This document shows, piece after piece, positions 12,800 through 32,330 of a stretch of DNA of 64,000 nucleotides. The notes beneath the pieces are model-generated. The model was not told the DNA's origin. It ran no database searches and saw nothing but the letters and a program-made list of their open reading frames with translations. The stretch comes from Thalassospira lucentensis. GTDB taxonomy: Bacteria; Pseudomonadota; Alphaproteobacteria; Rhodospirillales; Thalassospiraceae. The first letter of the stretch is position 1, and each line of letters starts with the position of its first letter. The stretch is taken from NCBI RefSeq assembly GCF_032921865.1, contig NZ_CP136684.1:2639001-2703000 (forward strand). Reading direction: 5' to 3'. A program made the translations under genes and the position numbers.

Positions 12800-13010
12800 C
12801 AATTTAATACGCGTTGTAGTTTCATGACGATCGATGCAGGTGGTTTGTTACAAAACTGACGAATGTTTCATCATCCGTTTTGGGGTAGTCATACTGGTCC
12901 AAGAAGCAAACTGTCTGATTTCGCCTGTTCGGGCGTCCGGCTGTGCATTGTCGGACGCCGATTGTGTTTGTTTGTGCATATTGAAACGATATAGGACGAT
13001 AATTCTTCAT

Positions 13011-13033
13011 CCCGGCAAGGGGGCAATGCCGGG
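13011..13033 (+). promoter_or_regulatory. Hairpin in the leader of the AraC-type gene
   Basis: CCCGGCA (13011-13017) pairs perfectly with TGCCGGG (13027-13033). It ends 28 bases before the start codon at 13062. It has no T-tract, so it is not an intrinsic terminator. It may be a leader hairpin or a protein-binding site. The 12800-13010 stretch before it holds no gene. Confidence 0.35.
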
Positions 13034-13061
13034 CTCCGATCAAACGGGATAAGACAGGTTC

Positions 13062-14348: not shown

Positions 14349-14387
14349 GGCAGGGTTGGCAGGATTTCAAAACAGGAACCTGCCGAC

Positions 14388-15119: not shown

Positions 15120-15466
15120 TGCTGGCTGGCGCCACCATTGGCAATTGGTGGTTTGGCGGGGGTGCCCGGCCTGCCAAGAAGGGCTTCGCGTTCTTCTTCG
15201 CGTAGCGGATCGGCATCAAGAACCAGTGCCGCATCAAGGGCGGCGGGATCGACAATCAGGATTTCCTCCTCCATGTCGCGGCTGCCTTCGACCAGAACCG
15301 GGATGCGGCATTCGATCTTTTTATAGGTCCGGGTGGCGGCCATTGCATCAAGTTCCTCAGTGGTTTCGACCTCGTAAATGCCGGGCGGAAACAGCCGGTC
15401 ATGCCCGGTCAGACGAAACGGGTGATAGAAGGTAACACTGCGATGCGTGGTGCGGGTGATCGTCAT
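15116..15466 (-). CDS. Small hypothetical protein, not recognised
   Basis: The start at 15466 gives 116 residues and sits eight bases after an AAGGAG ribosome site, much better placed than the frame's first possible start at 15508. The N-terminal half predicts beta strands (THRSVTFYHPFRLTG, then PPGIYEVETTEELD). The middle is 'ATRTYKKIECRIPVLVEG', and the C-terminus is Ala, Pro and Glu rich and probably disordered. No signal peptide or membrane helix is visible. It converges on the methyltransferase-like gene with a minimal overlap. A role cannot be given. Confidence 0.68.
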   Translation of the reverse strand: MTITRTTHRSVTFYHPFRLTGHDRLFPPGIYEVETTEELDAMAATRTYKKIECRIPVLVEGSRDMEEEILIVDPAALDAALVLDADPLREEEREALLGRPGTPAKPPIANGGASQH

Positions 15467-15800
15467 GATCATGGCTCCTTCGGGCTTCCGGAATGGACCA
15501 AAGGCCAAGCTTCCGGCAGTTTCGCGCGACCGTGTAACGAGCGGATCTAATCCGCTCCTGCTCGCCCCAAAACAGCATGATTGCCGGTCTTTGTGCGCGC
15601 ACTGCGCGAGAAGTCAAACCGGCTTTCTTCCTTAAATATGGTGAGTGCCCCGCAATTTCGCAAATGGGGTGGTTCTGTTTGGCGGGATATGGGGGACGAA
15701 ATAAGAAAAAATGCGGCAGGCATTCAGTTAGTGATCTGGCGGGTTCGCATCCATAGGAGAGCAATGTGCCCGCCCTATTGCATAAAGCGACAGCCGCAAA
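15467..15800. other. Intergenic stretch without recognised feature
   Basis: The 334 bases between the small hypothetical gene and the end of queE hold no convincing gene, tRNA or repeat. The promoter of the leftward small gene must lie here. Base composition is a little lower in GC than the neighbours. Confidence 0.5.
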
Positions 15801-16586
15801 TCACACCCCGCGCAGGTTGCCCCAGACATGGACGTGCCATTGCGGCAGGACACGAATGTTAAACCAGCCGCGTTCTGATACCTGATCCACCAGCCAGCGA
15901 TAGCGTTCCGTCAGTCCCGCAATATCAACGCCATTCGCCCCGTCCGGATGTGGCTCGGCAGGGGTGGTATTGACCGGTTGCAGGCAGACCGGGATATCGG
16001 GATGCAGTCTACGGACATGGTCGGCAAACATCAGATCGGCATCATCGCGGACCGGGAATTTAAGAGTGATCGCCGGACCGTCAAGCACGCCATTGGCGCG
16101 CGCAGCATTAATGCAGGCGGCAAGGGCGCGCGGGTCGAAATCAGTACTGCTGCTTGGTGGTTTGGGGCTTAGCGTCAGGTAATCAAGATCGGCAAACCAG
16201 TCACGCGCGATGCTGCCCTGGGTTTCGATGGCAAAGGTAAAGCCATTGCGTTTGCCAAGCGCAATCAACCCGCCCAACGGCTGGATCGCCGGGTTGCCAC
16301 CCGAAAGGGTCACAAGGATCGGCTTGCCACCCGAAAGGGTGCGGACGCGATCCATGACCTCAGCCGCCGTATTCGGTTTCCAGTCGGCGCGAAAGGCCGG
16401 ATCGACGGCATAAAGCGTATCGCACCATGAACAGCGAAAATCGCATCCCCCGGTGCGGACAAACACTGTCGGCATGCCGATCAGCGCCCCTTCGCCCTGC
16501 ACGGTCGGTCCGAAAATTTCCGATATGCGGATTTTATCGGATGCCAGCTCTGTTCCAAGCTCTGGCGCAAGTTCCGTCCCGCTCAT
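15801..16586 (-). CDS. queE: 7-carboxy-7-deazaguanine synthase (radical SAM)
   Basis: QueE converts 6-carboxytetrahydropterin to 7-carboxy-7-deazaguanine in the preQ0 pathway. The iron-sulfur cluster motif is CDFRCSWC, an expanded Cys-x3-Cys-x2-Cys, following [21 protein letters not shown] contacts are carried by [14 protein letters not shown]. The end, [15 protein letters not shown], is typical. The Met at 16586 is chosen because its ATG overlaps the queD stop (ATGA), giving 261 residues. An in-frame Met 18 bases earlier is possible. A short tandem repeat of TLSGG-encoding sequence is present (16294-16340). Confidence 0.95.
16294..16340. repeat. 17-bp direct repeat inside queE
   Basis: TTGCCACCCGAAAGGGT occurs at 16294-16310 and again at 16324-16340, exactly 30 bases apart and in frame. 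It encodes the doubled TLSGGK/TLSGGN in the SAM-binding region. This could be a small in-frame duplication or chance plus codon bias. Confidence 0.7.
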
Positions 16587-16942
16587 GGTCGGTATTCCGC
16601 CCATGTTTTCGGGGTTTCGGAAACCCGCACTGCACTGACTTCAGGCCAGCGGTCATGCGCCCATTCGTAAAAGAAAAGGGCAAGCCGTTCGGCGGTGGCA
16701 TGATCGTGGCCAAGGACCTCGTTGAGGTGGCGGTGATCAAATTCGTCATCAATCATTTTCTTGAGCGGGCCCAGTTCGCGGTAGTCGCGCACGAACCCCC
16801 GCGCATCAAGCTCCGCACCGCGAAGCTCGACTTCGACAATGTAATTATGCCCGTGCAGGCGCGAACAGGGATGATCGGCATCAAGCCCGGCCAGTTGATG
16901 GCTGGCGGAAAAGGCGAATTGTTTGGTGATGGTAAACATCAT
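16583..16942 (-). CDS. queD: 6-carboxy-5,6,7,8-tetrahydropterin synthase
   Basis: QueD makes 6-carboxytetrahydropterin from dihydroneopterin triphosphate. The 119-residue length is standard. Zinc ligands are visible in FAFSASHQL and [15 protein letters not shown] (one His followed by HGH). The catalytic region includes [23 protein letters not shown] and the C-terminal [15 protein letters not shown], with the expected Glu. It overlaps queE by four bases. The start faces a 197-base gap filled largely by REP-like hairpins before queC, so whether all three genes share one transcript is not certain. Confidence 0.96.
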
Positions 16943-17029
16943 AATGGCTTTCGATACGGCGCGCCCGTGCCCGCGATGCAGCGGAGGGCTTGCGGCCGGG
17001 TTGTGTCTGTGAGTCTGCGGTGCGAAAGA

Positions 17030-17112
17030 CTGGGCTCCCGCCTGCGCGGGAGTGACGGTTTTGGGGGGATTACCTTACCTTCGTCATGCCCGCGAAAGCG
17101 GGCATCCATCGT
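17030..17112. repeat. Inverted pair of REP-like palindromes
   Basis: Two GC-rich hairpins lie in the queC-queD gap. The first is CTCCCGC/GCGGGAG (17035-17052), followed by TGACGG. The second is ATGCCCGC/GCGGGCAT with a GAAA loop (17086-17105), preceded by CGTC. The second, read on the other strand, matches the plan of the first (CCCGC, short loop, GCGGG, TGACG), so they form a head-to-head pair. This type is widespread in alphaproteobacterial intergenic DNA. Confidence 0.78.
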
Positions 17113-17139
17113 GCCCCACCATGCTTGGTCCAGCGGCTT

Positions 17140-17883
17140 TTAGTCCCCGGAAGGTTGCACTTCCGCCTCTGCTCCAAGGCTGCGCGCCATATGCTCCGCC
17201 CTTGCCTGTTTCCAGTAATCGCGATCGACATAAACCGTCGGATCGGGCACACGGGCAAGCTCAAGCGCCTCGCGCCGCTCGACACAGGTGCCGCATCGCC
17301 CGCAATGGGTTTCACCACCCTTGTAACAGGACCATGTGCGATCAATCGGAACGCCAAGACGCCCGGCTTCGGCGGCGATATCGGCCTTTGATCCGTGGAG
17401 GAACGGGGTATAAAGCGACACGTCGCGCACACCCTCAAGGGCGTGGTTCTGCATCGTCTGGAACGATTTGATGAAATCGGGACGGCAATCGGGATAGATG
17501 AAATGATCCCCGCCATGAACGGCCGCTGCTACTGCATCCGCCCCGGCCGACGCCGCAGCCCCGAACGCAACCGCAAGCATGATGGCATTGCGGTTGGGCA
17601 CAACGGTGATGCGCATGGTTTCTTCGGCATAATGGCCATCGGGCACATCGATATCATCAGATGTCAATGACGACCCGGTCAGGAGTGCGCCAACCGGTGT
17701 CAGATCAACAATGTGATGTTTGACGCCAAGATCGCGTGCGGCACGCGCGGCGTAATCAAGTTCCTTTTTATGGCGCTGGCCATAATTGAACGAAATCAGG
17801 GAATGCAGTTTATGCTCGGCCGCAACCTTATGGGCCAGCGTGACGGAATCCAGCCCGCCAGAGCAGACGACAATCGTCTTCAT
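17140..17883 (-). CDS. queC: 7-cyano-7-deazaguanine (preQ0) synthase
   Basis: QueC uses ATP and ammonia to turn 7-carboxy-7-deazaguanine into preQ0. The 247-residue protein begins with the PP-loop SGGLDSVTLAHK (residues about 8-19). It carries NYGQRHKKELDYA and VPNRNAIMLAVA. Four zinc-binding Cys lie in SCYKGGETHCGRCGTCVERREA near residues 190-213. Together with queD and queE it makes the precursor of queuosine in tRNA. A possible preQ1-sensing pseudoknot sits directly upstream (17893-17924). Confidence 0.96.
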   Translation of the reverse strand: MKTIVVCSGGLDSVTLAHKVAAEHKLHSLISFNYGQRHKKELDYAARAARDLGVKHHIVDLTPVGALLTGSSLTSDDIDVPDGHYAEETMRITVVPNRNAIMLAVAFGAAASAGADAVAAAVHGGDHFIYPDCRPDFIKSFQTMQNHALEGVRDVSLYTPFLHGSKADIAAEAGRLGVPIDRTWSCYKGGETHCGRCGTCVERREALELARVPDPTVYVDRDYWKQARAEHMARSLGAEAEVQPSGD

Positions 17884-17892
17884 ATGTCATGT

Positions 17893-17926
17893 CTTTCGTG
17901 TTTTTAACCTGGTGCTACGACAGGGG
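17893..17926 (-). ncRNA. Candidate preQ1-I-like riboswitch in the queC leader
   Basis: Read on the minus strand, CCUG (17924-17921) pairs with CAGG (17911-17908). Between them lie UCGU (17920-17917) and AGCAC (17916-17912). After the stem comes the A-rich UUAAAAAC (17907-17900), then ACGA (17899-17896), which pairs with UCGU. This is the H-type pseudoknot order of preQ1-I aptamers: a loop ending in AC next to stem 1 and an A-rich loop. The second stem abuts the probable ribosome site GAAAG, 9 bases before the queC ATG, so translational control is plausible. Stem 1 is only 4 bp and the loop is shorter than in known examples, so this is tentative. Confidence 0.42.
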
Positions 17927-18009
17927 AAGGAAACATCCCTTCCAAGGCGCGCGGTTTGACACGAAGGATCACGGAAATCAAGGGAAAAACGCTGCTTTGA
18001 GGCGCGGTC

Positions 18010-18855
18010 TTACCCCTTCACCCCGGCAAGTACATGAAAACAAATCGGAACCTGAAAATGCCCGTCCGCTACATAAGGACGGAGTGCTTCGAACATCGCG
18101 GCATCAATCGCCCCGCGTTCCGCATCCGTGGCGGCACGTAGTTGCGGCCCAAACAGCATTTCCATCTGCGGCTTCCAGAATGTCGCGCGTTCCGGGATGC
18201 GCCCGGCGGGATTATGGGTGGTGATGGCAACATCGCCAAACCCGCCCCGCACCATGCGCGCAGTCGCCGACGCCGGATCGGCAAAGCCAAACAGGTCAAG
18301 CCCCGCATCGGCAAACCCGGTGCCCAGCATATTGCCCAGAACCCCATCCATGGCGGCAAATAACGGATTATCGACCAGCGGCGCCCACAGCATGAAGCTC
18401 GCCCGGCCACCAGCGCGCAAGACCCGGCTGGCCTCATGAAGGGCGGCATCGGGATCACGGCAAAACATCACACCAAACCGGCACGAAATCGCATCCATCG
18501 TGCCCGCCCCAAAGGGCAGCTTTTCCATGTCGGCCGCAACCACCGACAGATTGCCAATCCCCTCCGCCCCGGCGCGTTCCACCAACCCGGCACACATGCC
18601 CGGCACGATGTCGGATGCGATCACTTGGCCGTGCAGGCCTGAATCATCCTCACCAGCCAGCATCCGCGCAATTCCGAATGCCGGTTCCCCGACCCCGGAC
18701 GCGAGATCAAGCACGGCCAATCCTTGCCCATCGGCGGCCCGTGCCAAAGTCGGCAGATCGAGTGCTGCGATCAGATGCCGGTTGATCTTCTGTGCTGCGG
18801 GGGCGAGTTGATCAGCCCAGTTCAGCCAGTCTGAGGAAAGGTGGTGCCACGTCAT
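18010..18855 (-). CDS. Class I SAM-dependent methyltransferase
   Basis: The start at 18855 is chosen because its ATG overlaps the TGA of the upstream gene, giving 281 residues from MTWHHLSSDWLNWADQLAP. The SAM-binding motif I reads VLDLASGVGEPAFGIA, followed by IASDIVPGM and ADMEKLPFGAGTMDAISCRFGVMF, and RVLRAGGRASFMLWAP. This is the ubiquinone/menaquinone-methyltransferase-like (Methyltransf_11) group, whose members act on many small molecules. The substrate cannot be named. Base composition is that of the GC-rich backbone, unlike the upstream gene's looser codon use. Confidence 0.85.
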   Translation of the reverse strand: MTWHHLSSDWLNWADQLAPAAQKINRHLIAALDLPTLARAADGQGLAVLDLASGVGEPAFGIARMLAGEDDSGLHGQVIASDIVPGMCAGLVERAGAEGIGNLSVVAADMEKLPFGAGTMDAISCRFGVMFCRDPDAALHEASRVLRAGGRASFMLWAPLVDNPLFAAMDGVLGNMLGTGFADAGLDLFGFADPASATARMVRGGFGDVAITTHNPAGRIPERATFWKPQMEMLFGPQLRAATDAERGAIDAAMFEALRPYVADGHFQVPICFHVLAGVKG

Positions 18856-19283
18856 ATTTGTAAAAGATATATCGCAATTGCGCTTAGACAGACTACTATG
18901 TGCGGTAGGCTTATATGTGGCCAATGCATTATTTTAAAAGCAAACAGTGACCGCCCATTCTGATTCCAATGTTCACTCCATGAGGTGGCAATTCTGAATG
19001 GTTGTATTGGGGTGCCTGTTTGAAAAGCCGCTTCGATTTCTTTGATGCGCCCGTAAAATGCCTGCTGGTTCGCTTTCCATAGTGCTTCAATCAACCAAAA
19101 TACGACTGAAGATGCAGCTGCTACTAGTAACACTAGCGGTTTTTCTTCAATAATGCTTGTTACAATACCTGCTGCACTGAGGGTTACGCTCCAAGTTTTG
19201 ATCGTCAATGATTTCCCATCAAATTCTTCGACAATCCTTTGGAGATGCTCGTATTCTGAAATAAGTTCGGAGTGCTGGGTCAT
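18852..19283 (-). CDS. Small membrane protein, unknown function
   Basis: The 143-residue protein starts MTQHSELISEYEHLQRIVEE. Two close membrane segments lie at about 33-65 (GIVTSIIEEKPLVLLVAAASSVVFWLIEALW) and one more at the C-terminus (about 125-142). A conserved-looking region just before the first segment reads EEFDGKSLTIKTWSVTLSAAG. I have seen this pattern only in uncharacterised proteins. It overlaps the methyltransferase gene by four bases, so the two are translationally coupled. It also borders the AT-rich island on the right and is itself lower in GC than the backbone. It may belong to the incoming DNA. Confidence 0.72.
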   Translation of the reverse strand: MTQHSELISEYEHLQRIVEEFDGKSLTIKTWSVTLSAAGIVTSIIEEKPLVLLVAAASSVVFWLIEALWKANQQAFYGRIKEIEAAFQTGTPIQPFRIATSWSEHWNQNGRSLFAFKIMHWPHISLPHIVVCLSAIAIYLLQI

Positions 19284-19362
19284 TTGGATCCTGAAGATAG
19301 CTTTGAGAATGGAGGAAATATTGCTCGGTTGGTTAGTGACCTCTATCTAGGGTAAAGTGATT

Positions 19363-19496
19363 GTGTTTCATATCGCCTAAAGGTAACTTCGTTTTAGGCA
19401 TTTTTATATTGTTAAATGTCAGATTGTTGTAGGTAAGTGCGTTGTGTCAAGGAGATCAAATTTGTTGAGGGGGCTCCACAAAAACTCATGAAACAC
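19363..19496. other. Structured leader region before the AT-rich operon
   Basis: A 9-bp inverted repeat, GTGTTTCAT (19363-19371) and ATGAAACAC (19488-19496), encloses a second perfect 7-bp hairpin, GCCTAAA (19375-19381) with TTTAGGC (19393-19399), that runs into ATTTTTAT. The stretch ends about 48 bases before the methylase start. It could be a short leader RNA, a terminator shielding the operon, or the promoter region of the operon. The 19284-19544 gap contains no gene. Confidence 0.4.
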
Positions 19497-19544
19497 GTGA
19501 TAGTCCCGAAATCGAATTAACGATTATAGCTGGAAGCTAAAAGT

Positions 19545-20345
19545 ATGCAGTTGTTGAAGTGGGCGGGGAGCAAAATGGGGTCCGCTCGGGAAATTATGCC
19601 CTATCTTGATTTTGATCGTCCTTACTATGAACCATTCTGTGGTTCTGCATCATTTTTTTTAAAGTCGAATCCTCCTGCCGCAATACTAAATGATTACAAT
19701 CCCGCTCTTATTTCTTTTTATGCGAATATTAGGGTTAACCCTAAAAAAGTTTGGGATGTGTATAATGATATAAATATAGGTGAAGAAGATTATTATAAAG
19801 TAAGGGACGAGTTTAATATTTTATCATGCGGGATTGTGAAGGCTGGATTTTTTCTATATTTGAATCATTATTGTTTTAATGGCATATATAGAACTAACAA
19901 AAAAGGTAATTTCAATACTCCATTTGGGGCTAAGTTGAAAATTAAAAAGAAAATATCATTTGAAGATGTTTTGTTTTTTTCAAATAAGCTCAGAATGGCT
20001 AAATTGTTTAGTTTAGATTTCGAAGATTTTTTAAGGAATTCTTCCCCTTCTGGTTCTACGATTTATATGGACCCGCCATACTTTACAAAAGACGCAAGAG
20101 TTTTTAGTGAGTATGGAAATAAAGAATTCGGCGGGGAAGATTTGGAGAGGTTGCGTGATGTCGCCGTGTGGTGCTCGAAACGAGAAAATCGAGTTGTAAT
20201 TTCATATAGAGACTGTTCGGAATTTCGCGGCCTATTTTCCAATTGGATAGTTGGAAGTGTCAATGTTCGTAGAAATGTTGGCGGTTTTGTCGGGCGACGT
20301 AAAAAAGATAATGAGCTTATCGCTGTGTTAGGGGGGAGGGTATGA
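19545..20345 (+). CDS. Dam-family DNA N6-adenine methyltransferase
   Basis: The 266-residue protein has all main blocks of the D12 class of adenine methyltransferases. They are KWAGSK (residues 5-10), the SAM-site EPFCGS (29-34), NDYNPAL, the LNHYCFNGIYR block with GNFNTPFG (about 106-128) and the catalytic DPPYF (176-180). It should methylate adenine in DNA using SAM, and Dam relatives often target GATC. A GGAAG site precedes the ATG. It is the first gene of a four-gene AT-rich operon, overlapping the next gene by four bases. There is no recognisable restriction endonuclease beside it, so it could mark self DNA for the other three proteins. Confidence 0.93.
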   Translation: MQLLKWAGSKMGSAREIMPYLDFDRPYYEPFCGSASFFLKSNPPAAILNDYNPALISFYANIRVNPKKVWDVYNDINIGEEDYYKVRDEFNILSCGIVKAGFFLYLNHYCFNGIYRTNKKGNFNTPFGAKLKIKKKISFEDVLFFSNKLRMAKLFSLDFEDFLRNSSPSGSTIYMDPPYFTKDARVFSEYGNKEFGGEDLERLRDVAVWCSKRENRVVISYRDCSEFRGLFSNWIVGSVNVRRNVGGFVGRRKKDNELIAVLGGRV

Positions 20346-21535
20346 AGGCCCTAATTGTCAGCGATATTCATGCGCTATCTATGGATATACGAGAGTCGGC
20401 AGGTGGATATAGTGGGGGGCAAGGGAGCGATTTTTATATTGAGAATAGGCACCCCTCAAGAAACCCGATAATATCGATAGTGGATTGTTTGAAAGACAAG
20501 GACCTAAACATAGACGCTCTTGTTTGTTTGGGTGATTTGGCTCATCAAGCCAAGAAACTTCCCTTGATTACTGTTTGGAGTGATCTTCATTTCGTCGCAG
20601 AAGAGCTTGGAATACCTCATGTAATATCTGTTACGGGAAATCACGATATAGATTCACGCGCTGATAACATCAGAGCTGCAGAAAACAGGTTGGAATATTT
20701 ATCCCAAATTAAACCAGAGTTTCCGTCATCAAATCAAGAATTCAATGATCATTATTACAGGAACGGTGTCTCTGCTCTCGAGATTGGTGACTGTTTGTTG
20801 ATTGCATTGGATACATGTCGACTACATGGCCTCGGGACCGATCGGGCGGATGAGATATTCAGTGTTGGTCATCTGACTGATGGTATGATTTCAGCTGTAC
20901 TTGATATAATTGCGCAGACTAATTTGAATCATATTCTAATAGCTATGCATCATCATCCTCAGAAGATTGATGAGATTACTGATCCGACGTATGATCAGAT
21001 TCCAAGCGGGCCGGTATTTTTAGAGAGGTTGGCAAACTGTGGAAAGCAGTGTGTTGTTTTGCATGGCCATAAACATCTAGGCGCATTGAAGCGTTTTGTG
21101 ACCGGGCAAAATCCTCCCTACATTTTGTCAGCTTCAAGCTTGGCGGCGTTGCCATACAGGCGGCTTGAGCGTTTTCATACCAACCAGTTTCATATTTTAG
21201 ATTTTCATACTCACGAGCAAGGTTCGCCGTCTGGGGTGGTTTATTCATGGGAATGGGGGGAGGTCGCATGGCAGGTGAGTGGAAGGGATGCTATGCCGCA
21301 TACTCGACGATTTGGTGTGGAGCCAGATGTCGGGCAAGTGGCGCGAGATTTGCTTTCTCTAAATGCAGTTGGATTTAGGAGCTTGGAGGATCTGACCCAG
21401 ACGGCTGTGGGGGTTGAATACTTATCTGTTAAGCAAATGGATGAAGTTAACTGTTTGATGGTAGGCGGAAATCGTAAACTAGTTGGAGAAAGAGGGCAGG
21501 TGATCGGTATGCTGATTCAAGGAGACGGATCATGA
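20342..21535 (+). CDS. Calcineurin-like metallophosphoesterase
   Basis: The 397-residue protein has a complete two-metal phosphoesterase set: DIH (residues 8-10), GD (64-65), GNHD (99-102), MHHHP (202-206) and HGHKH (241-245). This fold includes nucleases (Mre11/SbcD), cyclic-nucleotide phosphodiesterases and protein phosphatases. The reading LIVSDIHALS and VISVTGNHDI is closest in style to the CpdA/Mre11 side, but substrate is not decided. About 100 residues after the catalytic domain (from about 295) form an unknown C-terminal part. The start overlaps the methylase stop (ATGA) behind GGGGGGAGGG. The stop overlaps the ATPase start in the same way. Confidence 0.9.
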   Translation: MKALIVSDIHALSMDIRESAGGYSGGQGSDFYIENRHPSRNPIISIVDCLKDKDLNIDALVCLGDLAHQAKKLPLITVWSDLHFVAEELGIPHVISVTGNHDIDSRADNIRAAENRLEYLSQIKPEFPSSNQEFNDHYYRNGVSALEIGDCLLIALDTCRLHGLGTDRADEIFSVGHLTDGMISAVLDIIAQTNLNHILIAMHHHPQKIDEITDPTYDQIPSGPVFLERLANCGKQCVVLHGHKHLGALKRFVTGQNPPYILSASSLAALPYRRLERFHTNQFHILDFHTHEQGSPSGVVYSWEWGEVAWQVSGRDAMPHTRRFGVEPDVGQVARDLLSLNAVGFRSLEDLTQTAVGVEYLSVKQMDEVNCLMVGGNRKLVGERGQVIGMLIQGDGS

Positions 21536-23385
21536 GTAACCATCCGACAGCGTTTAATGCGAGAAATAAAACTCCTCGGGAAATTGTTGAGCATCTAGTT
21601 ATGCCGAAGGAGTTCAGTAAAATTGCTGGATATCATAATCTTGTTTTGGTGGGGCCAAGAGGAATTGGGAAGACCACTATATTAAAATCCCTTACTCCAT
21701 CTGGTTTATATTTTATGAGCAAGAGGGGTGATTTTTGTAATATTTTAAAAGAAATAGATTTGAACTATATACCTATATATATCCCGGCGGAGACTCTTTG
21801 GAAGGGAAATGCAAATATTATTAAGATGAGTGATGGTGGGGAAGGTTTTAAGGAAATAATACTTAATGGTTTGTTTGTTGATCATTGTTTGCATGAACTT
21901 ATTTCCTCTTTTGAGGATAGCCGGAACATTGCAAAAAAATTTAGTGATAAGGATGCTCCATATTGGGCGGTTCGGGTCGATGAAGATCAAGAGGTCGAAA
22001 TATCTAGGAAATGCTCCAAATTTTGGAAGTTAAAACAGGTTGAAACATCTTTTCTAGGGGTAAAGCTGGCTCTTATAGATCGGGCAAACTCGTTTAGATC
22101 GAAAATTAATTCATTCGAGCAATTAAACGATCATTCCCGAATTGTTTCAGATCATCTAGATGTTCTTCTGATGTTTAGAGGTTTTTTTGATATAGTTGAT
22201 AATGTTCTTGGAGAGGTGAAGAAGTGGAGTATAAATTTCGACGAAATGGAAATTGCCCCTAAGAGAGTTCTTTATAAATTATATGAAAACTTGCGGTCAT
22301 TTGATCACAGAGTAGTTCTTAAATTTTCTCTTTTCCCCTTTGTTGATTTTTATGACATTGAGGCTAAGCTGTCATCTGGATCTTCTCCCGTTGAGGGGCA
22401 GGACTTTATTGCTGTAAACTTGACCAGTAAATTTGCAAATCCAGAATATGATTTTTCTCGGGAATTGGTGGCTTTGCAGTGCGCTAAGAGAAAAGTTGAT
22501 TTTGACGATTTTGTTCTATATCTGAATTCCTCTCAGGCAATTAACAAAAGAACAAGAGACTATAAAAAGACTAGGTTTGAGAAAAATTTTGAAAAAATAT
22601 TTGATAATGCAATAAAAGATAATGAAGATAAAAGTTTTATTGAGTATATGAGTGATCAGGGAGTGGATGATGTTGGAAGTATTAGAGAGTTAACTGGAGC
22701 AAAAAGAGCTCAACAGGTAAGGAAAATTGCGCCGATAGTAGAGATTAGAAGCTATTATTTATCTGAAAAGGTTAGGCAAGAAGGGGTGATACGGAGGAGA
22801 TCTGTTAAAGGTTACGGGTATTATCATGGATTTGATCAAATTATTAGTTTAGCCGAAAGTAATCCAAGGGCTATTAATTTCTACATTAATGAACTTTTGG
22901 ATAGTTTTCTTTCTGGTGAGAGCTCATCTACTGCGCAGAACCGCGTTATCAGTCGTAATGTCGATCGGTTCCGGGCTTTGGTTGCAACGCAGGCTGTTCC
23001 GACAAGTGGGCATAATCGAAAAGTACGGAATCCTCTCGATGTTGTTGACTGTTTGGGGGCCTCTATTTCTTTGGGTTTATTTGATAAGAAATTTCGTCCT
23101 GAACCTGCCCTTTCTTTTATTTTCAAGGATATTGATGTTGTGACCAAAGATATACTTGGCATTGCTATAAATGCTGGAGCTTTGGTTGTTGACCAACGAA
23201 GGGAAGGTAAGCATCTTCTTTTTGAAATTACAGATTGCCGCGCACGTGTTTCCCACAGAATTGCACCTTTCTATCCATTGCCCTTAATAACCGGGCAAAG
23301 TAAGGTTATAAATAATATCCCAGATGGCAATGAGACAAGAAAACGTCAGCCTGACTTATTGAATTGGGGGGCTCTTGATGATTGA
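21532..23385 (+). CDS. P-loop ATPase resembling ORC/CDC6-type AAA proteins
   Basis: The 617-residue protein opens with FNARNKTPREIVEHLVMP and then LVLVGPRGIGKTTILKSL, a Walker A box at residues 41-49. That layout matches a group of prokaryotic ATPases likened to ORC/CDC6 and found near other accessory genes. After the P-loop the sequence is long, helical and poorly conserved. A winged-helix-like section may lie near the C-terminus (about 505-570). The gene is strongly AT-rich: the 60 bases at 21721-21780 contain only 13 G or C. It overlaps both neighbours, so it should be made in step with them. Its likely role is a sensor or motor for the system. Confidence 0.72.
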   Translation: MSNHPTAFNARNKTPREIVEHLVMPKEFSKIAGYHNLVLVGPRGIGKTTILKSLTPSGLYFMSKRGDFCNILKEIDLNYIPIYIPAETLWKGNANIIKMSDGGEGFKEIILNGLFVDHCLHELISSFEDSRNIAKKFSDKDAPYWAVRVDEDQEVEISRKCSKFWKLKQVETSFLGVKLALIDRANSFRSKINSFEQLNDHSRIVSDHLDVLLMFRGFFDIVDNVLGEVKKWSINFDEMEIAPKRVLYKLYENLRSFDHRVVLKFSLFPFVDFYDIEAKLSSGSSPVEGQDFIAVNLTSKFANPEYDFSRELVALQCAKRKVDFDDFVLYLNSSQAINKRTRDYKKTRFEKNFEKIFDNAIKDNEDKSFIEYMSDQGVDDVGSIRELTGAKRAQQVRKIAPIVEIRSYYLSEKVRQEGVIRRRSVKGYGYYHGFDQIISLAESNPRAINFYINELLDSFLSGESSSTAQNRVISRNVDRFRALVATQAVPTSGHNRKVRNPLDVVDCLGASISLGLFDKKFRPEPALSFIFKDIDVVTKDILGIAINAGALVVDQRREGKHLLFEITDCRARVSHRIAPFYPLPLITGQSKVINNIPDGNETRKRQPDLLNWGALDD

Positions 23386-24298
23386 CATTATTGTTAATGA
23401 CATTGGTGATATGTCACCGGATATATTTATTGGTTGTATAGGTTATGAGGATAGATCAAAGTACTATTTTCAGAACTACATAGATCCAGACCTATGTAAT
23501 GTTATGTTTTATGATTATATGTCATCTGGAGTTTTATCTTATGATGCAAATAAATCATTTATGTCATCATTTGATAAGATGGGAATTTTCTCTGAAATAG
23601 ATGAGGTTTTTTTTTATTTTAAGGATTTGTTAAATAAAAATAATAATTCCAAAGTGGTGTTGGATGTAACTTCTTTTGATAGAGAGGTTATTGGTAGGTT
23701 GATGCATTTGATGTTTTTGGAGAGAGAAAGAATTTGTAGCGTATGTTTAATTTATTGCCCTAGGAAGTTTGTCGATATTGATCTTAAGTTTGATGTGGTT
23801 CAATCGTTTGGGCCAGTTTTACCTATTTTTCTGGGGGATGCATCTTCTAGTCGTCACGAGCTATGCCTCATACTTGGCGCTGGTTATGAGTATGGGAAGG
23901 CAGTTGGAGCAATCGATACTCTTGAACCGGATAACGTATACTGTTTTCGTCCAACCGGAACTAATCCAAAATTTGATGAGTTTATCGACAAAGCAAATGT
24001 AGACTTTAATTTCATTGATAATAAAGATCATATTATTTCATATGACCTTAATGACGTAGACTTGTTATACTATAGACTTAGAAGGCTTGTTGAGGCGGAA
24101 TCTTCTAGAAGAGATATTCTGATATTGCCTCTTGGGCCAAAATTATTTGCTGCTCTGTCAATGATAGTTGGTCTTATACTTCATCCATCAGTTATGATTT
24201 GGAGGCATTCTAGCTGTTCCACAAATCATCCGGATTCTATAACAGATGCAATCGCAACAGGAAATATTCTGAAGTTTAGCTTCTCCTTTGATAATTAG
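23378..24298 (+). CDS. Unrecognised protein with Rossmann/CARF-like motifs
   Basis: I do not recognise a named family. The ATG at 23378 overlaps the ATPase stop by eight bases (a TTG just before it is also possible), giving 306 residues. The N-terminus IDIIVND...PDIFIGCIGYEDRS has an alternating strand-helix look, and a second strand block reads SKVVLDVTSFDREVIGRL (about 92-108). A strand ending in 'D-V-T-S' followed by a basic or acidic helix start resembles the ligand loop of CARF-type folds seen in accessory defence proteins. That link is an inference. The 3' end LKFSFSFDN is followed by an AT-rich GCTTATA/TATAAGC hairpin at 24312-24333. It is the last gene of the operon. Confidence 0.75.
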   Translation: MIDIIVNDIGDMSPDIFIGCIGYEDRSKYYFQNYIDPDLCNVMFYDYMSSGVLSYDANKSFMSSFDKMGIFSEIDEVFFYFKDLLNKNNNSKVVLDVTSFDREVIGRLMHLMFLERERICSVCLIYCPRKFVDIDLKFDVVQSFGPVLPIFLGDASSSRHELCLILGAGYEYGKAVGAIDTLEPDNVYCFRPTGTNPKFDEFIDKANVDFNFIDNKDHIISYDLNDVDLLYYRLRRLVEAESSRRDILILPLGPKLFAALSMIVGLILHPSVMIWRHSSCSTNHPDSITDAIATGNILKFSFSFDN

Positions 24299-24387
24299 TT
24301 TGTATTTTTTTGCTTATATTTATGTTTATAAGCCGCATCATTAATTTTCAAATTTTCATTGTATCGAATCATTTCTGATGATTGTCC

Positions 24388-24999
24388 TCACTCAATCACC
24401 GCACAAGCAATCCGGTCCCCGGCATCGCCTGAGGGCTGGGATTTATAGTCGTCGGCACCGGCATGGATGATGACGGCCTTGCCGTGAATGTTGGTTTCGC
24501 CGGTGCCGTCAAAGCGAACGGCGTTATTGAGAATCTGGGCGTAAAGTTCGCCCTTGTCATTGACATACTGGTTCATCATGTCGCCTGCATGCGGGCCGTC
24601 GGCAAATTCATGGCCGTGGGATTTGTTCGTTGGGTTGAAATGGCCGCCGGCGGATTTGAAGCCTCCTTTCGCATCGCATTCGCCGTTTTCATGGATATGA
24701 AACGCCACCCACTGCCCGGGAGGAAGGTCGCGAAGCTCGATCTTCAGGATCGCGGCATCCGGCACGCCATTGACCGTCAGCGTTCCGATTTCCGCACCAC
24801 TTGCATTGATAAAGCTTGATTGGGCTTCCTCGCCCGCCCTGGCATGGCCGGGCACAAGCGCCATCGCCGCACCAAGGGCGAGAAGTGCCGCCGTGGCGGC
24901 GGTCGCCAGTGCCATGTGGCGGGCATCATTGGCTTTGGTGGCGGTGGGAATGGCGGCGGCATTTGATTTCGGGCGGCAGATGTTTTCGCGATGGAACAT
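24388..24999 (-). CDS. sodC: Periplasmic Cu/Zn superoxide dismutase
   Basis: This enzyme dismutates superoxide in the periplasm. From the Met at 24999, which has an AGAGGA ribosome site, it is 203 residues. An open frame continues 80 codons further upstream but looks non-coding. A signal segment lies at about residues 27-55 (LATAATAALLALGAAM, cleavage near HARAGEE). Metal ligands are visible: HIHENGEC, GHFNPTNKSHGHEFADGPHAGD and the late HAGADDY. Two Cys (GEC and IACAVIE) can form the usual disulfide. GC-rich codon use resumes here, so the gene marks the right edge of the AT-rich island. Confidence 0.93.
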   Translation of the reverse strand: MFHRENICRPKSNAAAIPTATKANDARHMALATAATAALLALGAAMALVPGHARAGEEAQSSFINASGAEIGTLTVNGVPDAAILKIELRDLPPGQWVAFHIHENGECDAKGGFKSAGGHFNPTNKSHGHEFADGPHAGDMMNQYVNDKGELYAQILNNAVRFDGTGETNIHGKAVIIHAGADDYKSQPSGDAGDRIACAVIE

Positions 25000-25343
25000 G
25001 GGAAATCCTCTGCTGTTGCGGGCGGGCCCGTGGGCGGCATGGTGCCGGTTTGGCCGTTCTTTGAAAAACTGTCTTTGTAAAACTGGTGAGGTCGGGTTTT
25101 GTTCCGTAAATCTTTGGTTTTTTGGTTGAATTGCGACCGGAGTATTGACGGGGTTTGAGGCTATTTTGTGGGGCGGGATGGGCTCCGGACTTTGCGGGCG
25201 TGCCGGGGCGGGATTGATGGGGGGCGACAGGAAGCGCATGACAAAGGGGCCGCTGTCACAAGGGCGGGTCTGGGAGCGTCAGGTTTGAGGCGGCGCGGGC
25301 CGCCGTGATCACGGCATAACCGGACGGGGTGCAGGCACTGACC
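25000..25343. other. Intergenic region between divergent sodC and membrane-protein genes
   Basis: About 340 bases separate two divergent starts, so both promoters should lie here. I see no strong repeat, terminator or RNA gene. Open frames that cross it lack ribosome sites and do not look coding. Confidence 0.5.
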
Positions 25344-26756
25344 ATGGCAGAGGAGAATGACCGGCAATCTTCGGGGGCTCCGACACGGCTACCGGCATCT
25401 GGTGCATCCGGCAGCGGCGTAGGCGCAAAAGGATTGGGCGATCTGATCCGGCGTGTTCTGTTTGGCCGGGTTTTATATGTTCGCGGGGCGGCGATTTTGG
25501 GCTCTGTCATGCTGACCGGGTTGGTGGTGGTTTTGTATGTCGGGTTTGTCGTGACCCTGTTTGCCGGATTTACCGCCGATATCCAGCGCGAGCTTTTAAG
25601 CCGTGAGCTTGAGCTAAGCTCGCCCGGCGATCTGGAGCGGCTGGTGTTTCAGGGTTATCACGAGGCACAGCTTAAGGGCGATATCCATGCCATGCGCACC
25701 GAAATCCGGATGCTGGACGCCGCGTCGCTGAACGCGGCCCGGCACGGATTGGCCCTGCGGCAGGATGCGATTGCCGCGTGGCGGGCCGCGTTTGATCTTT
25801 ATGCCGGGCTCGGCGCGGTGATGGCAGCGCAACCAGACCGGTTTGACCCGGAATTTCGCACCGATTACCTTGCCGCGCTTAATCAGGCCTTTACCTTTCT
25901 GGCGCAAAGCGATTTCAGTGCCGAGGCGGGGCGCCCCTCGCCCGACACGGCGCGCACCGATGAGGGCAAGGAAGTGATCGCCAATCTTGACACTGCCCTG
26001 TCGCACATGAAGCTTGCACCCGGTGTGAGCGAGGCCTTTGCAGCCGATATCCAAAGCCGGATCGATGCGATCCGCAATGCGGTAATGAGCTTTGGCGAGA
26101 AGGCGGCGCGCGCCCAGGTGGCCTGGGCCAATATCACCGCCGAACAGGCGCAGGCCGACCGGCTGCGCGCCAGCCTGAGTGCGGAGCTTTCCGACCTGCG
26201 CGAAGAACATGCCGCCCTTTGGGCCGACGAGGATGCGACGGATGATGGCGGGCGACGGTCGCTGGTCGCCCTGTTTCAGCAGCCGCTGGGCGGGGTGCTG
26301 TCGCTTCTGCTTCAGATGCCGGGGATTGTCCTGACACTGCTGGTGACGGTGGCGGCGGGTGGTCTTGGCTCCGTCGTCAGCTTTACCCGTCGTTATCGCC
26401 GGGTGGGAGAGGGCGGCGAGGCGGATATTGAGATGGCCGAAGGCGATATGGCGCCGGTTCCGGCAGAACAGGCGCCGGAAACCGGTTTTGCCGCGGCGGG
26501 CCGCCTGATGGTGATGACCGGCGAGGGGATTGCGGCCGCAATCGCGATTTTCCTGTTTACCGAGGCGGGGATGCTGATGGTGACCCAGGGTGGGCCGGAC
26601 GGATCGGGCAATATCGAAATCAGCGCATTCCTCGTGACCTTCATGGCATTCGTGTCGGGCTTCATGGCCGAGGACGCGTTTAACAAGATACAGGATGCCG
26701 GCAGAAAGCTTTTTCGTGTTGGTGGCGACGACGGGCCGGGACCGGCGGGGTTGTAA
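25344..26756 (+). CDS. Membrane protein with long helical soluble domain, unknown function
   Basis: About 470 residues from the ATG at 25344 (a GTG at 25329 is also in frame). Residues about 45-80 hold one strong membrane segment (GSVMLTGLVVVLYVGFVVTLFAGF). A mostly alpha-helical, charged region follows at about 85-310, with a likely coiled coil near 265-300. A second membrane segment lies at about 320-345 and two more at about 395-445. Between them is a short acidic loop rich in Glu and Pro. No enzymatic motif is visible. A terminator follows at once, so it is probably a single-gene unit. I do not recognise the family. Confidence 0.78.
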   Translation: MAEENDRQSSGAPTRLPASGASGSGVGAKGLGDLIRRVLFGRVLYVRGAAILGSVMLTGLVVVLYVGFVVTLFAGFTADIQRELLSRELELSSPGDLERLVFQGYHEAQLKGDIHAMRTEIRMLDAASLNAARHGLALRQDAIAAWRAAFDLYAGLGAVMAAQPDRFDPEFRTDYLAALNQAFTFLAQSDFSAEAGRPSPDTARTDEGKEVIANLDTALSHMKLAPGVSEAFAADIQSRIDAIRNAVMSFGEKAARAQVAWANITAEQAQADRLRASLSAELSDLREEHAALWADEDATDDGGRRSLVALFQQPLGGVLSLLLQMPGIVLTLLVTVAAGGLGSVVSFTRRYRRVGEGGEADIEMAEGDMAPVPAEQAPETGFAAAGRLMVMTGEGIAAAIAIFLFTEAGMLMVTQGGPDGSGNIEISAFLVTFMAFVSGFMAEDAFNKIQDAGRKLFRVGGDDGPGPAGL

Positions 26757-26768
26757 GGGCGCAAAACA

Positions 26769-26795
26769 AAACCGGCAGGGGATGCCTGCCGGTTT
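26769..26795. terminator. Hairpin terminator between convergent genes
   Basis: An 11-bp perfect stem, AAACCGGCAGG (26769-26779) with CCTGCCGGTTT (26785-26795), with a 5-base loop. The flanking A and T bases would serve both converging genes. Confidence 0.78.
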
Positions 26796-26822
26796 GGATG
26801 GATGAGATTATGATCGCGAGGA

Positions 26823-27497
26823 TCAGATGGCGGACGTGCCGTAACGCGGGGCGTTACGCTGTGCATTGCTGCCGGCCTCGGCATAGGCCTGACTTGCCTG
26901 CGCGGTCTGGGTGACCTGCGACTGAAGGACCTGTTCATCACGTTCTGGCGTTGTATCGGCTGCTTCCTTGGCCGTGCTGTTTTCAAACAGTTCGGTCAGG
27001 CGGGCTTCGATGGATTTCAGCCCCTCGTTCAGACGATCTTCGGTTTCGTTGATATTGCCATTGATCGTGTCATTAAGCGCGCCAAGCCCTTCAAGGAATT
27101 CGCGGGCCTGTTCAAGTCCCTTGGCAATGCCTTCGCTGGCCTGATCAAAAATCTCGCGGGCTTCTTCCTCGCTTCCGGCATTGGCGGCGATCAGATCGCC
27201 GACACGGGCAAGGATACGATCAGCCACCGCTTCGGGCGTGTAATCGGACGGATCGACACCCTGGATCGAAAGGCCGGTCGAAGACAGGCTTTCATTGATT
27301 GCCGAAACGATCTGATCGGCCGACAGAAGATTGGCTGACTGTGAAGAAAGCGAAACCGAGGTCGCACTGGCAAAAGAGGAGGCAATAGAATTGTTCGACC
27401 CGGATTTCGAGTCGTCATTACCGGGCAGGTAAGACTGCGCGCTGCGGCTGGAGCCGTTTGCTGCCTGCGATGTCAGTCCGCCGATGGTGATATCCAT
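26823..27497 (-). CDS. Hypothetical protein, DUF5610-like
   Basis: The product has 224 residues behind a good GGGAGG site. The N-terminus is Ser/Asn-rich and low complexity (SRSAQSYLPGNDDSKSGSNN). Residues about 60-150 are helical, with TPEAVADRILARVGDLIAAN and AREIFDQASEGIAKGLEQA. That pattern resembles the DUF5610 domain found in flagella-related and surface-related genomic contexts. Residues about 150-224 are polar and probably disordered. There is no signal peptide and no flagellar gene nearby, so function is open. DUF5610 is assigned from memory of the pattern only. Confidence 0.72.
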   Translation of the reverse strand: MDITIGGLTSQAANGSSRSAQSYLPGNDDSKSGSNNSIASSFASATSVSLSSQSANLLSADQIVSAINESLSSTGLSIQGVDPSDYTPEAVADRILARVGDLIAANAGSEEEAREIFDQASEGIAKGLEQAREFLEGLGALNDTINGNINETEDRLNEGLKSIEARLTELFENSTAKEAADTTPERDEQVLQSQVTQTAQASQAYAEAGSNAQRNAPRYGTSAI

Positions 27498-27892
27498 GCC
27501 GTCCTCCCTGGACGCGGGTTATATGTGTACAAATCCTTGATCGGGCTTGATACACGGTGATTTCCTGATGGCCTGCGCGGGCACCTGCTTGGTACGGATC
27601 GCGCGCCGGAAGTCTTTACGTACGGTTAATATCGCACAATCGGGGCGAAAAGGCCATAGACAGTTATATAGGTTCGGTCGGGCGATGTGCAAACCCGTCA
27701 TGCGCGATACGCGGCTTTTCGGACTTGCATCGGGGCCGGTTGTGGCGGTTATCCTGCACTCTGATATTGCAACAGGGGCCAAGCCCGATTATTGAACAGG
27801 GTTTATGCGAGTTATGTTGCAAGAATTTCTTGCCCGGAACGCGTCGAGGTCTTCTCCGCATCCGGTATTTTGAGCTTAGGAGCTGTTTGACG
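27498..27892. other. Leader region upstream of leuS
   Basis: About 395 bases between the divergent hypothetical gene and leuS. The only symmetry I note is a 15-base near-palindrome GCAAGAATTTCTTGC at 27819-27833, 59 bases before the leuS start. No tRNA, T-box or leader peptide with Leu codons was found. Confidence 0.5.
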
Positions 27893-30800
27893 GTGGCGAA
27901 CTATCAGGAAAGTGCGCGCGAATTTGAAAAGCGCTGGCAGGATTACTGGCGGGAAAACGATACCTATCGTACCCCCAATCCGGGCGATGCCGATTTCGAC
28001 GCCGCCAAAAAGAAAAAAGTCATCCTTGATATGTTCCCCTATCCAAGCGGGGTTGGTCTTCATATCGGTCATCCGCTGGGTTATATCGCGACCGACGTCA
28101 AGGCACGGTTCGAACGCATGCGTGGTTTCAACGTGCTGCATTCCATGGGCTTTGATGCCTTTGGCCTGCCGGCCGAGCAGTTCGCCATCCAGACCGGACA
28201 GCATCCGCGCATCACCACCGAAGCCAATATCGAAAACATGCTGCGCCAGTTGCAGGTGATCGGCCTTGGCCATGATCCGCATCGTCGCTTTGCCTCGACC
28301 GATGTCGATTATTACAAATGGACGCAGTGGATTTTCCTTCAGCTTTTCAACAGCTTCTATGACCCGACCGTCGAATGGAAAGGCCCGCAGGGGCAGACCA
28401 TCACGGGCCGTGCCCGCCCGATTGCCGAGCTTCGCGGGCTGCTTGAAAGCGGGGAATGGCTTCTGGATGAAGACGGCGTGCCGCAGCCAAAATCCGTCAT
28501 TGGCGAAGGTACGAAGGCAGAAGGCAAGGAAATCGACCGCGCGATTGACCGCGGGCGTCTGGCCTATGTCGATGAGGTTCCGGTCAACTGGTGCCCGATG
28601 CTGGGTACGGTCCTGTCGAACGAGGAAGTTACCAACGAAGGCAAGTCCGAACGCGGTGATTACCCGGTTTACAAGCGCCCGCTGAAACAGTGGATGTTGC
28701 GCATTACCGATTATGCCGATCGTCTGGTTGCGGACCTTGAAGGACTGGACTGGCCCAACGGCGTTGTCGAGATGCAGAAAGGCTGGATCGGTCGTTCGGT
28801 CGGTGCGCGGGTTAATTTCCAGGTTGCCCTTGCCGATGGCGGCAAAGACAAGATCGCGGTCTATACCACGCGTCCCGATACGATTTTCGGTGCCACCTAT
28901 ATGGTGCTGGCTCCTGAACATCCGCTGGTTGATGCGCTCACGACGGCCGATCAGAAGGACGCGGTTGCGGCCTATCGTGCCGAGGTCAAACTGGCTGGTC
29001 CGGTATCGTCCAAGGATGAAGCCAACCGTGAAAAGACCGGCGTGTTTATCGGGGCCTATGCCACCAATCCGGCCAATGGACAGCAGATCCCGGTGTGGAT
29101 TGCCGATTATGTCCTGATGGGCTATGGCACCGGAGCAATCATGGCGGTCCCAGCCGGCGATCAGCGCGATTTCGAATTTGCCCATAAATTCGGCCTGCCG
29201 ATTGTCGCCACCACCAAACCGTCGGAAAGCTGGCTTCGGGCCAATGCACCGGCTGATGCGGTCGATCTTGACGATGCGGCCTTGTTGGCGCTTTACAAAA
29301 CCGCCCCTGGTGATTTCAAAGTCGCACAGACCGATATCGGCGATACAATCAATTCGGCCAATGACGAGATCAGCCTGAACGGGCTCTCGACCCCGGATGC
29401 CAAGGAGAAAATCATCGAATGGCTGGAAGCCAAGAACATTGGCCGGGGCCGGGTTCAGTACAAACTGCGCGACTGGCTGTTTTCGCGTCAGCGTTATTGG
29501 GGCGAGCCGTTCCCGGTGCTGTTTGATCAGGAAACCGGACAGGTGCATGGCGTGGCCGAGGCTGCCCTGCCCGTAGTTCTGCCGGAAATGACCGATTTCA
29601 AACCGCAATCAAACGAAGACCCGAATTCGGAACCCGAACCGCCGCTGGCGCGCGCCAAGGAATGGATGGAGGTCACCGGGATCGTGCTTGCCGATGGTTC
29701 GGTCCTGCCGGTGGATGCGGTAGTGGGGTCGACACACTCCCATGCCGGTGCGGATTACGAAGTGCGTTCGTTCCGTCGTGATGCCAACTCGATGCCGAAC
29801 TGGGCCGGATCGTGCTGGTATTATCTGCGCTATTTCGATGCAAAGAACGATCAGGCCTTTGCATCGGATGCGGCGGCGGCCTATTGGGCCAATACCACCG
29901 ATGACAATGGCAATGCCAAGCCGGGTGCTGTCGACCTTTATGTTGGCGGCGCGGAGCATGCGGTGCTGCATCTCCTGTATTCACGCTTCTGGCACAAGGT
30001 CCTATTTGACCTTGGTTATGTTGCAACGCCTGAACCGTTCCAGAAGCTGTTCAATCAGGGCATGATCACGGCCGATGCCTATACTGACGCGCGCGGCGTT
30101 TATGTCGACATCCATGATGTTGAAATGCGCGATGTGGATGGCAAAAAGCAGCCATTCAATGCCAAGACGGATGAAAAACTGATCACCGTTCCCGGCAAAA
30201 TGGGCAAGCGGTACAAAAATGGCATCCCGCCGGAAGAAATTTGCGATCAATATACGATTGATACCTTCCGGACGTACGAGATGTATATGGGGCCTCTCGA
30301 CAGCTCCAAACCTTGGCAGTCCGACGCGATTGTCGGCATGATGCGTTTCCTCTCCAACGTCTGGAAGGTCGCAACCCAGATGGAACGCACAAGCGATGTT
30401 GATGGCAAAATCGAAACGCTTTTGCATAAAACCATCGCCAAGGTGACCAACGACATCGCCGAACTGCGGCTTAATACCGCAATTGCGGCATTGATCGAAC
30501 TGACCAACGCCATGACCCGTCAGAATGCGGTGCATGACGATCATGTTCGTGCGCTTGCCCTGATGGTCGCGCCTTTTGCGCCGCATCTGGGCGAAGAGCT
30601 TATGAGCCGTATGGCAGAGGCCGAATTTGGCACGCGAAAATCGGTGATCAAGTTTGACTGGCCGGTATTTGATGCTGAAAAAGCCAAGGACGACGAATTT
30701 GAAGTCCCGGTTCAGGTTAATGGGAAAAAACGTGGTTCGATCATGGTGGCGGCCGATGCCGATCAGGCAACGGTCGAAGCAATGGCAAAAGCCGACGAAA

Positions 30801-30895: not shown

Positions 30896-30918
30896 GGTGG
30901 ATCGCGACAGGTTTCACA

Positions 30919-30957
30919 CAAACAGGGTGTTCTTAAGCGAATGCCCTGTTTGTCTTT
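30919..30957 (+). terminator. Terminator after leuS
   Basis: The 9-bp stem CAAACAGGG (30919-30927) with CCCTGTTTG (30944-30952) is followed by TCTTTG. The T-tract is short, so it is a moderate terminator. Confidence 0.6.
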
Positions 30958-31028
30958 GACTGGGATTGTTGACGGTTGTGCATGTGCTGGCTAGAAGTCA
31001 GACAGAATTAAAATCCAAGGGTTGAGCA

Positions 31029-32318: not shown

Positions 32319-32330
32319 AAGCCGGATTGA

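Follow-up and report, generated by a model that had tools for sequence, protein, structure and literature searches.

A 64,000-nucleotide stretch of the Thalassospira lucentensis genome (contig NZ_CP136684.1, positions 2,639,001 to 2,703,000; hereafter the window) carries an operon of four genes on the + strand at positions 19545..24298. The genes encode, in this order, a DNA methylase, a phosphoesterase, an ATPase and a protein with CARF domains (P0001 to P0004). An earlier note, made from the letters of this DNA alone, had described the same four open reading frames (ORFs), and we recovered them with the same ends. Consecutive genes overlap by 4 bases (20342-20345), 4 bases (21532-21535) and 8 bases (23378-23385), the last if translation starts at the ATG at 23378 (the listed start, at 23375, is TTG). 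Overlaps of this kind suggest translational coupling; the fixed protein ratio that the note deduced from them does not follow. Its G+C counts are exact (13 in the 60 bases at 21721-21780 and 45 at 26101-26160), and the operon is indeed far more AT-rich than its surroundings (38.5% G+C, versus 56.9% at 9000-18852 and 56.6% at 24388-34000). Its guesses for the first three proteins were borne out by matches to the MethyltransfD12/Dam, calcineurin-like Metallophos and ORC-CDC6-like families, whereas the fourth, which it had labelled unrecognised, is a CARF6 protein by PADLOC match.

The first gene (19545..20345, + strand) encodes a Dam-family N6-adenine DNA methyltransferase of 266 amino acids, with matches to PF02086 (E 2e-40), TIGR00571 dam (187.5 bits, cut-off 114.85) and PADLOC MTase_II (E 4.7e-59). 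Its closest solved structures are the Dam and DpnII methylases, which align over almost its whole length. The score against the E. coli-type Dam equivalog is 130.4 bits, far under the cut-off of 441. The methylase motif DPPY (residues 176-179, positions 20070..20081, + strand) is kept in 55 of 55 aligned methylases, which represent 54 of the 60 methylase-bearing loci described below (window included) plus a Methylobacterium plasmid, L031. Also kept in all 55 are the equivalents of Dam N120, R124 and P134, which is consistent with GATC as the target site. The equivalents of R137/Y138 are not kept. We take all five to be base-contact residues in Dam.

The second gene (20342..21535, + strand) encodes a calcineurin-like metallophosphoesterase of 397 amino acids (PF00149, E 1.7e-9). 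Eight residues (D8, H10, D65, N100, H101, H203, H243 and H245), which from knowledge of the superfamily we take to be metal and active-site residues, do not vary in any of the 71 aligned sequences. The predicted structure (predicted local distance difference test score, pLDDT, 92.5) is nearest among solved folds to Lmo2642, YydB, Rv0805, GpdQ and SMPDL3A/B, with Mre11 first appearing at rank 31. For Rv0805, a cyclic-nucleotide phosphodiesterase, the target-normalised template modelling (TM) score reaches 0.78. The phosphoesterase is the probable effector of the system; elsewhere among conflict systems, enzymes of the calcineurin fold have been predicted to act as nucleotidyl phosphodiesterase effectors (PMC7159879).

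An ORC/CDC6-like P-loop ATPase of 617 amino acids follows (21532..23385, + strand), most of whose length is covered by PF24389 (E 1.5e-104). The Walker A sequence GPRGIGKT (residues 41-48, 21652..21675, + strand) has an arginine within the P-loop, and the Walker B sequence is DEME (residues 237-240, 22240..22251, + strand). G41, R43, G44, G46, K47 and T48 of the former and D237, E238 and E240 of the latter are invariant in 48 of 48 aligned sequences, and the patterns G.RG.GK[ST] and DE.E are present in 74 of 74 relatives tested. Sequence searches gave no convincing solved relative for P0002, P0003 or P0004.

The fourth gene (23378..24298, + strand) encodes a tandem CARF-domain protein of 306 amino acids, a predicted sensor of a nucleotide-type ligand. 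It matches the PADLOC CARF6 models PDLC01918 (E 8.1e-39) and PDLC01915 (E 2.7e-36) and no Pfam or NCBIfam model. We read its predicted structure (mean pLDDT 94.5) as two tandem Rossmann-like halves. Fold matches to Csm6, Can2, Cam1 and SAVED proteins have probabilities of 0.84-1.00 and E-values of 1e-3 to 2e-2. The model aligns with single CARF domains of Can2 (119 columns, 3.0 Å), Csm6 and Cam1, and with SAVED proteins over about 300 columns (TM 0.36-0.43, root-mean-square deviation 10-12 Å). The two lowest E-values of this search belong to unrelated proteins that superpose poorly, and further unrelated folds are among the matches. Across 72 aligned sequences, G253 and K255 of a GPK motif (residues 253-255, 24134..24142, + strand) are invariant and P254 is almost so.

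The best-known role of CARF sensors is to detect cyclic oligonucleotides that CRISPR or CBASS enzymes produce. No cyclase or nucleotidyltransferase was recognised within the operon, and we searched for such enzymes in 50 genomes (the window genome and 49 of the 78 genomes with related loci introduced below). Dependence on Cas10 was set aside as an explanation: Csm1-type Cas10 (TIGR02578) was above cut-off in none of the 50 and matched weakly in six, in a search made for the Csm1 type and not with Cmr2-specific or other cyclase models. A CD-NTase partner was likewise set aside, as SMODS was above cut-off in eight of the 50 genomes and the window genome gave no SMODS match. For PF22335, 10 genomes, including that of the window, passed the cut-off, at only 27-35 bits. 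E. coli also matches this model, and we read these matches as GGDEF-type cross-talk, including two weak palm-domain matches in the window genome, one of them just above cut-off.

The earlier note staked its reading on the genes occurring together elsewhere, and they do. One scan of species genomes with an alignment of the ATPase yielded 78 loci in Pseudomonadota, Bacteroidota, Actinomycetota, Acidobacteriota, Verrucomicrobiota and Planctomycetota. Phosphoesterase, ATPase and CARF genes stand in this order on one strand in 73 of the 78, with the methylase directly upstream as well in 52. Four of the five exceptions are cut by contig ends (L107 and L108 begin inside or just before the ATPase, and L119 and L121 end inside it); the fifth, L115, is degenerate, with a methylase fragment directly before the ATPase and no phosphoesterase between. 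The methylase of L121 and the ATPase of L107 are each split over two ORFs. Phosphoesterase and ATPase genes are a median of -4 bases apart (73 loci), and ATPase and CARF genes a median of -1 (74 loci), figures that lean towards tight overlap since start codons were picked by script near the previous stop. With the window included, 60 of 79 loci have a Dam-type methylase or a fragment of one, five have a different D12 methylase (identified by profile scan in L058 and L078 and by similarity in the other three), eight have none and six could not be judged. The profiles behind these counts were trained on the loci that they count; the starting profiles, built from three or four sequences, already gave 80 phosphoesterases, 81 CARF proteins and 63 methylases in 93 loci. 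L074, L093, L095 and L109 were kept in the counts and omitted from the ATPase tree as near-duplicates; L095 is near-identical to L078 and L074 to L046, L093 is only 92% identical to L088, and L109 was not compared. The top 25 clusters of neighbouring genes held no further conserved partner, the largest being a recombinase (eight loci; the one member scanned is a DNA invertase) and the alternative D12 methylase (five). Replacement of the methylase by a restriction nuclease was rejected as a general feature, as an HNH gene lies upstream only in the Pseudoalteromonas loci L032 (2157-5520) and L104 (2910-4046). L032 also encodes a 614-residue protein whose C-terminus looks restriction-endonuclease-like by eye and which has no Pfam or PADLOC match.

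The operon is mobile. All four genes occur in the same order on plasmids of Methylobacterium, Cupriavidus (locus L077 of the scan) and Sinorhizobium meliloti, and the last three alone are on a Pseudoalteromonas plasmid. Beside the operon on the Methylobacterium plasmid (L031:10512-13984), a CHAT-domain protein and a second metallophosphoesterase are possibly another defence module. Phage records gave no match to the system, and IMG/VR gave two related contigs (L169 and L170, ATPases 96% identical) with four intact genes amid phage genes. In L170 the operon is flanked on one side by a repressor-like gene and a replication initiator and on the other by a minor tail protein and the small and large terminase subunits. 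L169 has a head-tail joining protein in addition, and the operon directly precedes the minor tail protein in both. From these surroundings, we read the two operons as prophage cargo.

In T. lucentensis itself the operon lies in a variable island (18853..24387, no strand assigned), defined by comparison with sister genomes, that holds the operon and one divergent gene. The AT-rich segment is thus larger than the operon described in the earlier note, with edges near 18853 and 24387. The island flanks match the same-species genome G452 at 95.9-96.1%, the gap there being filled by other genes, and the operon is not at the syntenic site in the same-species genome compared. A restriction-modification-like module occupies the site in one same-species genome, and about 145 bases remain at it in G462 and G471. 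The site was read in four of the 11 other genomes of the genus with a sodC match.

Dam has roles in replication and repair in some bacteria, and the ATPase is named after ORC/CDC6, so the operon could be a chromosomal housekeeping or replication-control unit rather than a defence system. We consider this very improbable, given the carriage on plasmids and prophages, the differing occupancy of the site within the species, and the sporadic distribution of the whole ATPase family. At E <= 1e-15, PF24389 was found in 9 of 398 genomes sampled from the window's phylum, 6 of 369 from the class of a Halomonas and 6 of 395 from the phylum of a Mucilaginibacter, counts that include the centre genomes and three already-known hosts.

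A search with NF008152 for E. coli-type Dam, covering the 78 host genomes and that of the window, gave nine hosts with such a gene at 333-447 bits (L052, L080, L085, L087, L088, L091, L099, L104 and L112). A resident Dam above 300 bits accompanies seven of the eight methylase-less loci and none of the 65 methylase-bearing loci, where the best score is 181 (Fisher p 4.9e-9). The loci of the other two Dam-positive hosts, L088 and L091, are cut upstream. We placed the 300-bit threshold post hoc, once the gap between 333 and 190 bits had been seen; the Fisher table omits the six cut loci and counts L115 and L121, with fragmentary and split methylases, as methylase-bearing. Of 73 judged loci, 72 thus have either their own methylase or a host Dam above 300 bits. 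Three loci found later, in a search of 394 genomes from the order of a Vibrio, are all methylase-less and have host Dam scores of 383-415 bits; two of them fall in a divergent subfamily. Read most simply, the pattern means that this branch needs Dam-type methylation, supplied by its own enzyme or by the host's, and relatives in cells that own Dam seem to have dropped the operon's methylase gene.

The same association could arise by descent, if the loss of the methylase in marine gammaproteobacterial branches had other causes and their Dam is coincidental, with the methylase acting at another site and in another role. Judged by record titles, every one of the nine Dam-positive hosts is a gammaproteobacterium, and the ATPase tree yields just three independent pairs, of which on average 2.9 run in the expected direction and none in the opposite (sign test p 0.25). 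The recognition loop differs partly from that of Dam, and the lack of the R137/Y138 equivalents means that the site may be other than GATC. For the methylase-less locus L066, the host offers, away from the locus, no better than a Dam-like gene of 190 bits. In the divergent loci L036 and L037 the stretch read holds no methylase motif, and their hosts gave no Dam match (their CARF proteins are identical, so they are effectively one case). All of this tells against the model favoured below, in which Dam-type methylation marks self; so do the modest CARF fold matches of P0004 (best relevant E about 1e-3, with the wide SAVED superpositions given above) and the lack of a Csm1-type Cas10 or SMODS match in the window genome. 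In five of the 16 more distant relatives described next, the stretch read likewise gave neither a methylase profile match nor a motif. On the other side, the same switch occurs on three separated branches of the ATPase tree, and the later Vibrio-order loci repeat it. The Methylomonas (L051), Steroidobacter (L076), Teredinibacter (L083) and Halomonas (L118) hosts, which we take to be gammaproteobacteria, lack E. coli-type Dam and keep the methylase; those of L083 and L118 share a branch of the ATPase tree with most of the Dam-positive hosts. We regard lineage confounding as unlikely, though a serious contender.

For the wider PF24389 family we examined 16 further neighbourhoods (L034-L041 and L161-L168), none of them part of the main set. 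A CARF6 protein is adjacent to or fused with the ATPase in 15 of 15 of these relatives scanned, as in the window. What varies is the neighbouring enzyme, which is a phosphoesterase in L036 and L037, HD-CE in L035, L038 and L163, PRTase-CE in L034, L039, L040, L161 and L167, and a kinase fused to the ATPase in L041, L164, L166 and L168. The kinases of L041 and L166 are below the Pfam kinase cut-off and yet match PADLOC CARF_STK_AAA; L165 is kinase-fused by the look of its sequence, a call made outside the kinase profile scan. In L162 (5579-8419) the ATPase has a fused N-terminal ParA/MinD-like P-loop domain and lies beside CARF6 and an N6 methylase. By profile, an N6/N4- or C5-type DNA methylase is nearby in 10 of the 16 (weakly in L161). 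An unscanned ORF with a C5-methylase-type PCQPFS motif (L038:7976-9001, - strand) lies about 3.5 kb from the HD-CE/ATPase/CARF6 locus. A Zn ribbon-kinase-AAA+ protein with an arginine in its P-loop, fused to CARF, was already described in 2014 (PMC4012209), and it fits the fused relatives. The consecutive accessions PF24389-PF24391 (ORC-CDC6-like, PRTase-CE and HD-CE) suggest that one earlier paper described these families together.

The constancy of the ATPase and CARF protein, with effector-type enzymes and methylases exchangeable around them, argues for three roles: sensing by the core, marking of self, and an effector function, here that of the phosphoesterase. It is a tentative proposal, with nearly as much chance of being right as wrong, that this is a family of immune systems gated by signalling and guarded by methylation, which pair an ATPase-CARF core with exchangeable effectors (phosphoesterase, HD, PRTase or kinase) and exchangeable methylases; one branch, where the host already has Dam, would drop its own methylase and read the host's mark.

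The phosphoesterase might instead turn the system off, as a cyclic-nucleotide phosphodiesterase that clears the CARF ligand, with the response itself left to the ATPase complex or a host protein. Rv0805 is among its nearest folds and Mre11 ranks well below, and a nucleotide-sensor protein is encoded in the same operon. Against this, no cyclase was recognised in the operon, and the searches reported above gave no Csm1-type Cas10 above cut-off in 50 genomes and SMODS in eight of them, the window genome not included. In relatives the slot holds PRTase-CE or a kinase, which are not obvious ring-opening enzymes, and in the calcineurin superfamily fold resemblance does not fix the substrate. We think this role improbable.

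We favour, at somewhat better than an even chance, a mobile anti-invader module built on a CARF-gated ATPase and guarded by methylation, in which the Dam-type mark denotes self and the phosphoesterase is the probable effector. The operon's methylase or a resident chromosomal Dam would methylate host adenines, most likely in GATC. The ATPase and tandem CARF protein would form the sensing and control core, the ATPase engaging DNA that lacks the mark and the CARF protein gating activity by binding a nucleotide-type ligand. On triggering, the phosphoesterase would act on DNA or nucleotides, halting either the invader or the cell. The earlier note had already suggested defence, with the methylase marking self, and the genomic context supports that much of it: distant recurrence, carriage on plasmids and prophages, a restriction-modification-like module at the same site, and the complementarity with resident Dam. 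The action of the ATPase and phosphoesterase on foreign DNA that it also envisaged is still a prediction, as is anti-phage activity itself.

A variant is that the system monitors methylation state, so that loss, hemimethylation or excess of Dam-type marks, as might accompany fast phage replication or a phage methylase, would lead to an abortive response in place of a direct attack on unmarked invader DNA. The near-universal presence of a methylase or Dam across the judged loci would fit. So would the PRTase-CE of L034, which matches PADLOC PRTase_III-A, PRTases being the usual effectors of type III retrons (PMC12548924). The trigger in this variant is conjectural, and it predicts the same genomics as the self-mark module; we rate it as decidedly unlikely.

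If the dependence on Dam is real, the GATC methylation that serves housekeeping would also label self for immunity. This would help to account for the Dam genes that some phages carry. The claim is testable in a simple comparison of dam+ and dam- cells. The operon also places a tandem CARF protein in a widespread methylase-linked setting.

The divergent gene of the island (18852..19283, - strand) encodes a small membrane-type protein of 143 amino acids (P0005), probably a passenger. It matches weakly the PADLOC candidate PDC-M50A (E 1.6e-8) and also a PHROG of unknown function. It was rejected as a component of the system, with no convincing homologue among the ORFs of 92 other loci (best E 0.003). 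At the same site in another congener (L135:9821-12111), adjacent ORFs of 272 and 491 residues, without Pfam or PADLOC match, are possibly a further defence pair. In the empty-site congener G471, a Dam-like gene of 294 bits lies at another place in the genome (C1:240708-241508).

We recognised no publication describing this four-gene set; the main CARF-classification literature was not covered, and we do not claim that the set is unpublished. The earlier note could match the combination to nothing named. That does not stand, as every part has a database model and the link between ATPase and CARF had been described as the kinase-AAA+-CARF fusion (PMC4012209). Several known systems share features with the operon. 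DpnII-type GATC restriction-modification has a methylase related to P0001. The operon shares with type II restriction-modification a methylase of a type II family and differs from it in that P0002-P0004 match no restriction-nuclease family, P0002 matching only generic Metallophos; a phosphoesterase, an ATPase and a sensor stand there instead. BREX (PMC12839542) comprises the ORC/Cdc6-clade ATPase BrxC, the adenine methylase PglX and PglZ; the operon likewise combines an adenine methylase, a phosphatase-type enzyme and an ORC/Cdc6-type ATPase. P0001-P0004 match no BREX model in PADLOC at E <= 1, and the operon has a CARF sensor instead. CBASS with SAVED effectors (Cap5, 3TM-SAVED) resembles it in the long alignment of P0004 with these proteins and differs in having a nucleotidyltransferase, none being recognised in the operon and no SMODS match being found in the window genome. 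P0004 is like the CARF6 family of PADLOC-DB in profile match (to E 8e-39) and in its tandem Rossmann-like model; it differs in carrying no fused effector domain and in its hosts, with no Csm1-type Cas10 above cut-off in those whose genomes were searched (50 of 79). The Zn ribbon-kinase-AAA+-CARF fusions (CARF_STK_AAA) share the P-loop arginine with P0003, and the kinase-fused relatives L041, L164, L166 and L168 have CARF6 beside or fused to the ATPase and a methylase adjoining. In the window the parts are separate genes, with the phosphoesterase in the kinase's place. Each part is thus individually catalogued and the ATPase-CARF link is in print; new here are the proposed dependence on Dam, the comparison of effector slots and the exchange site.

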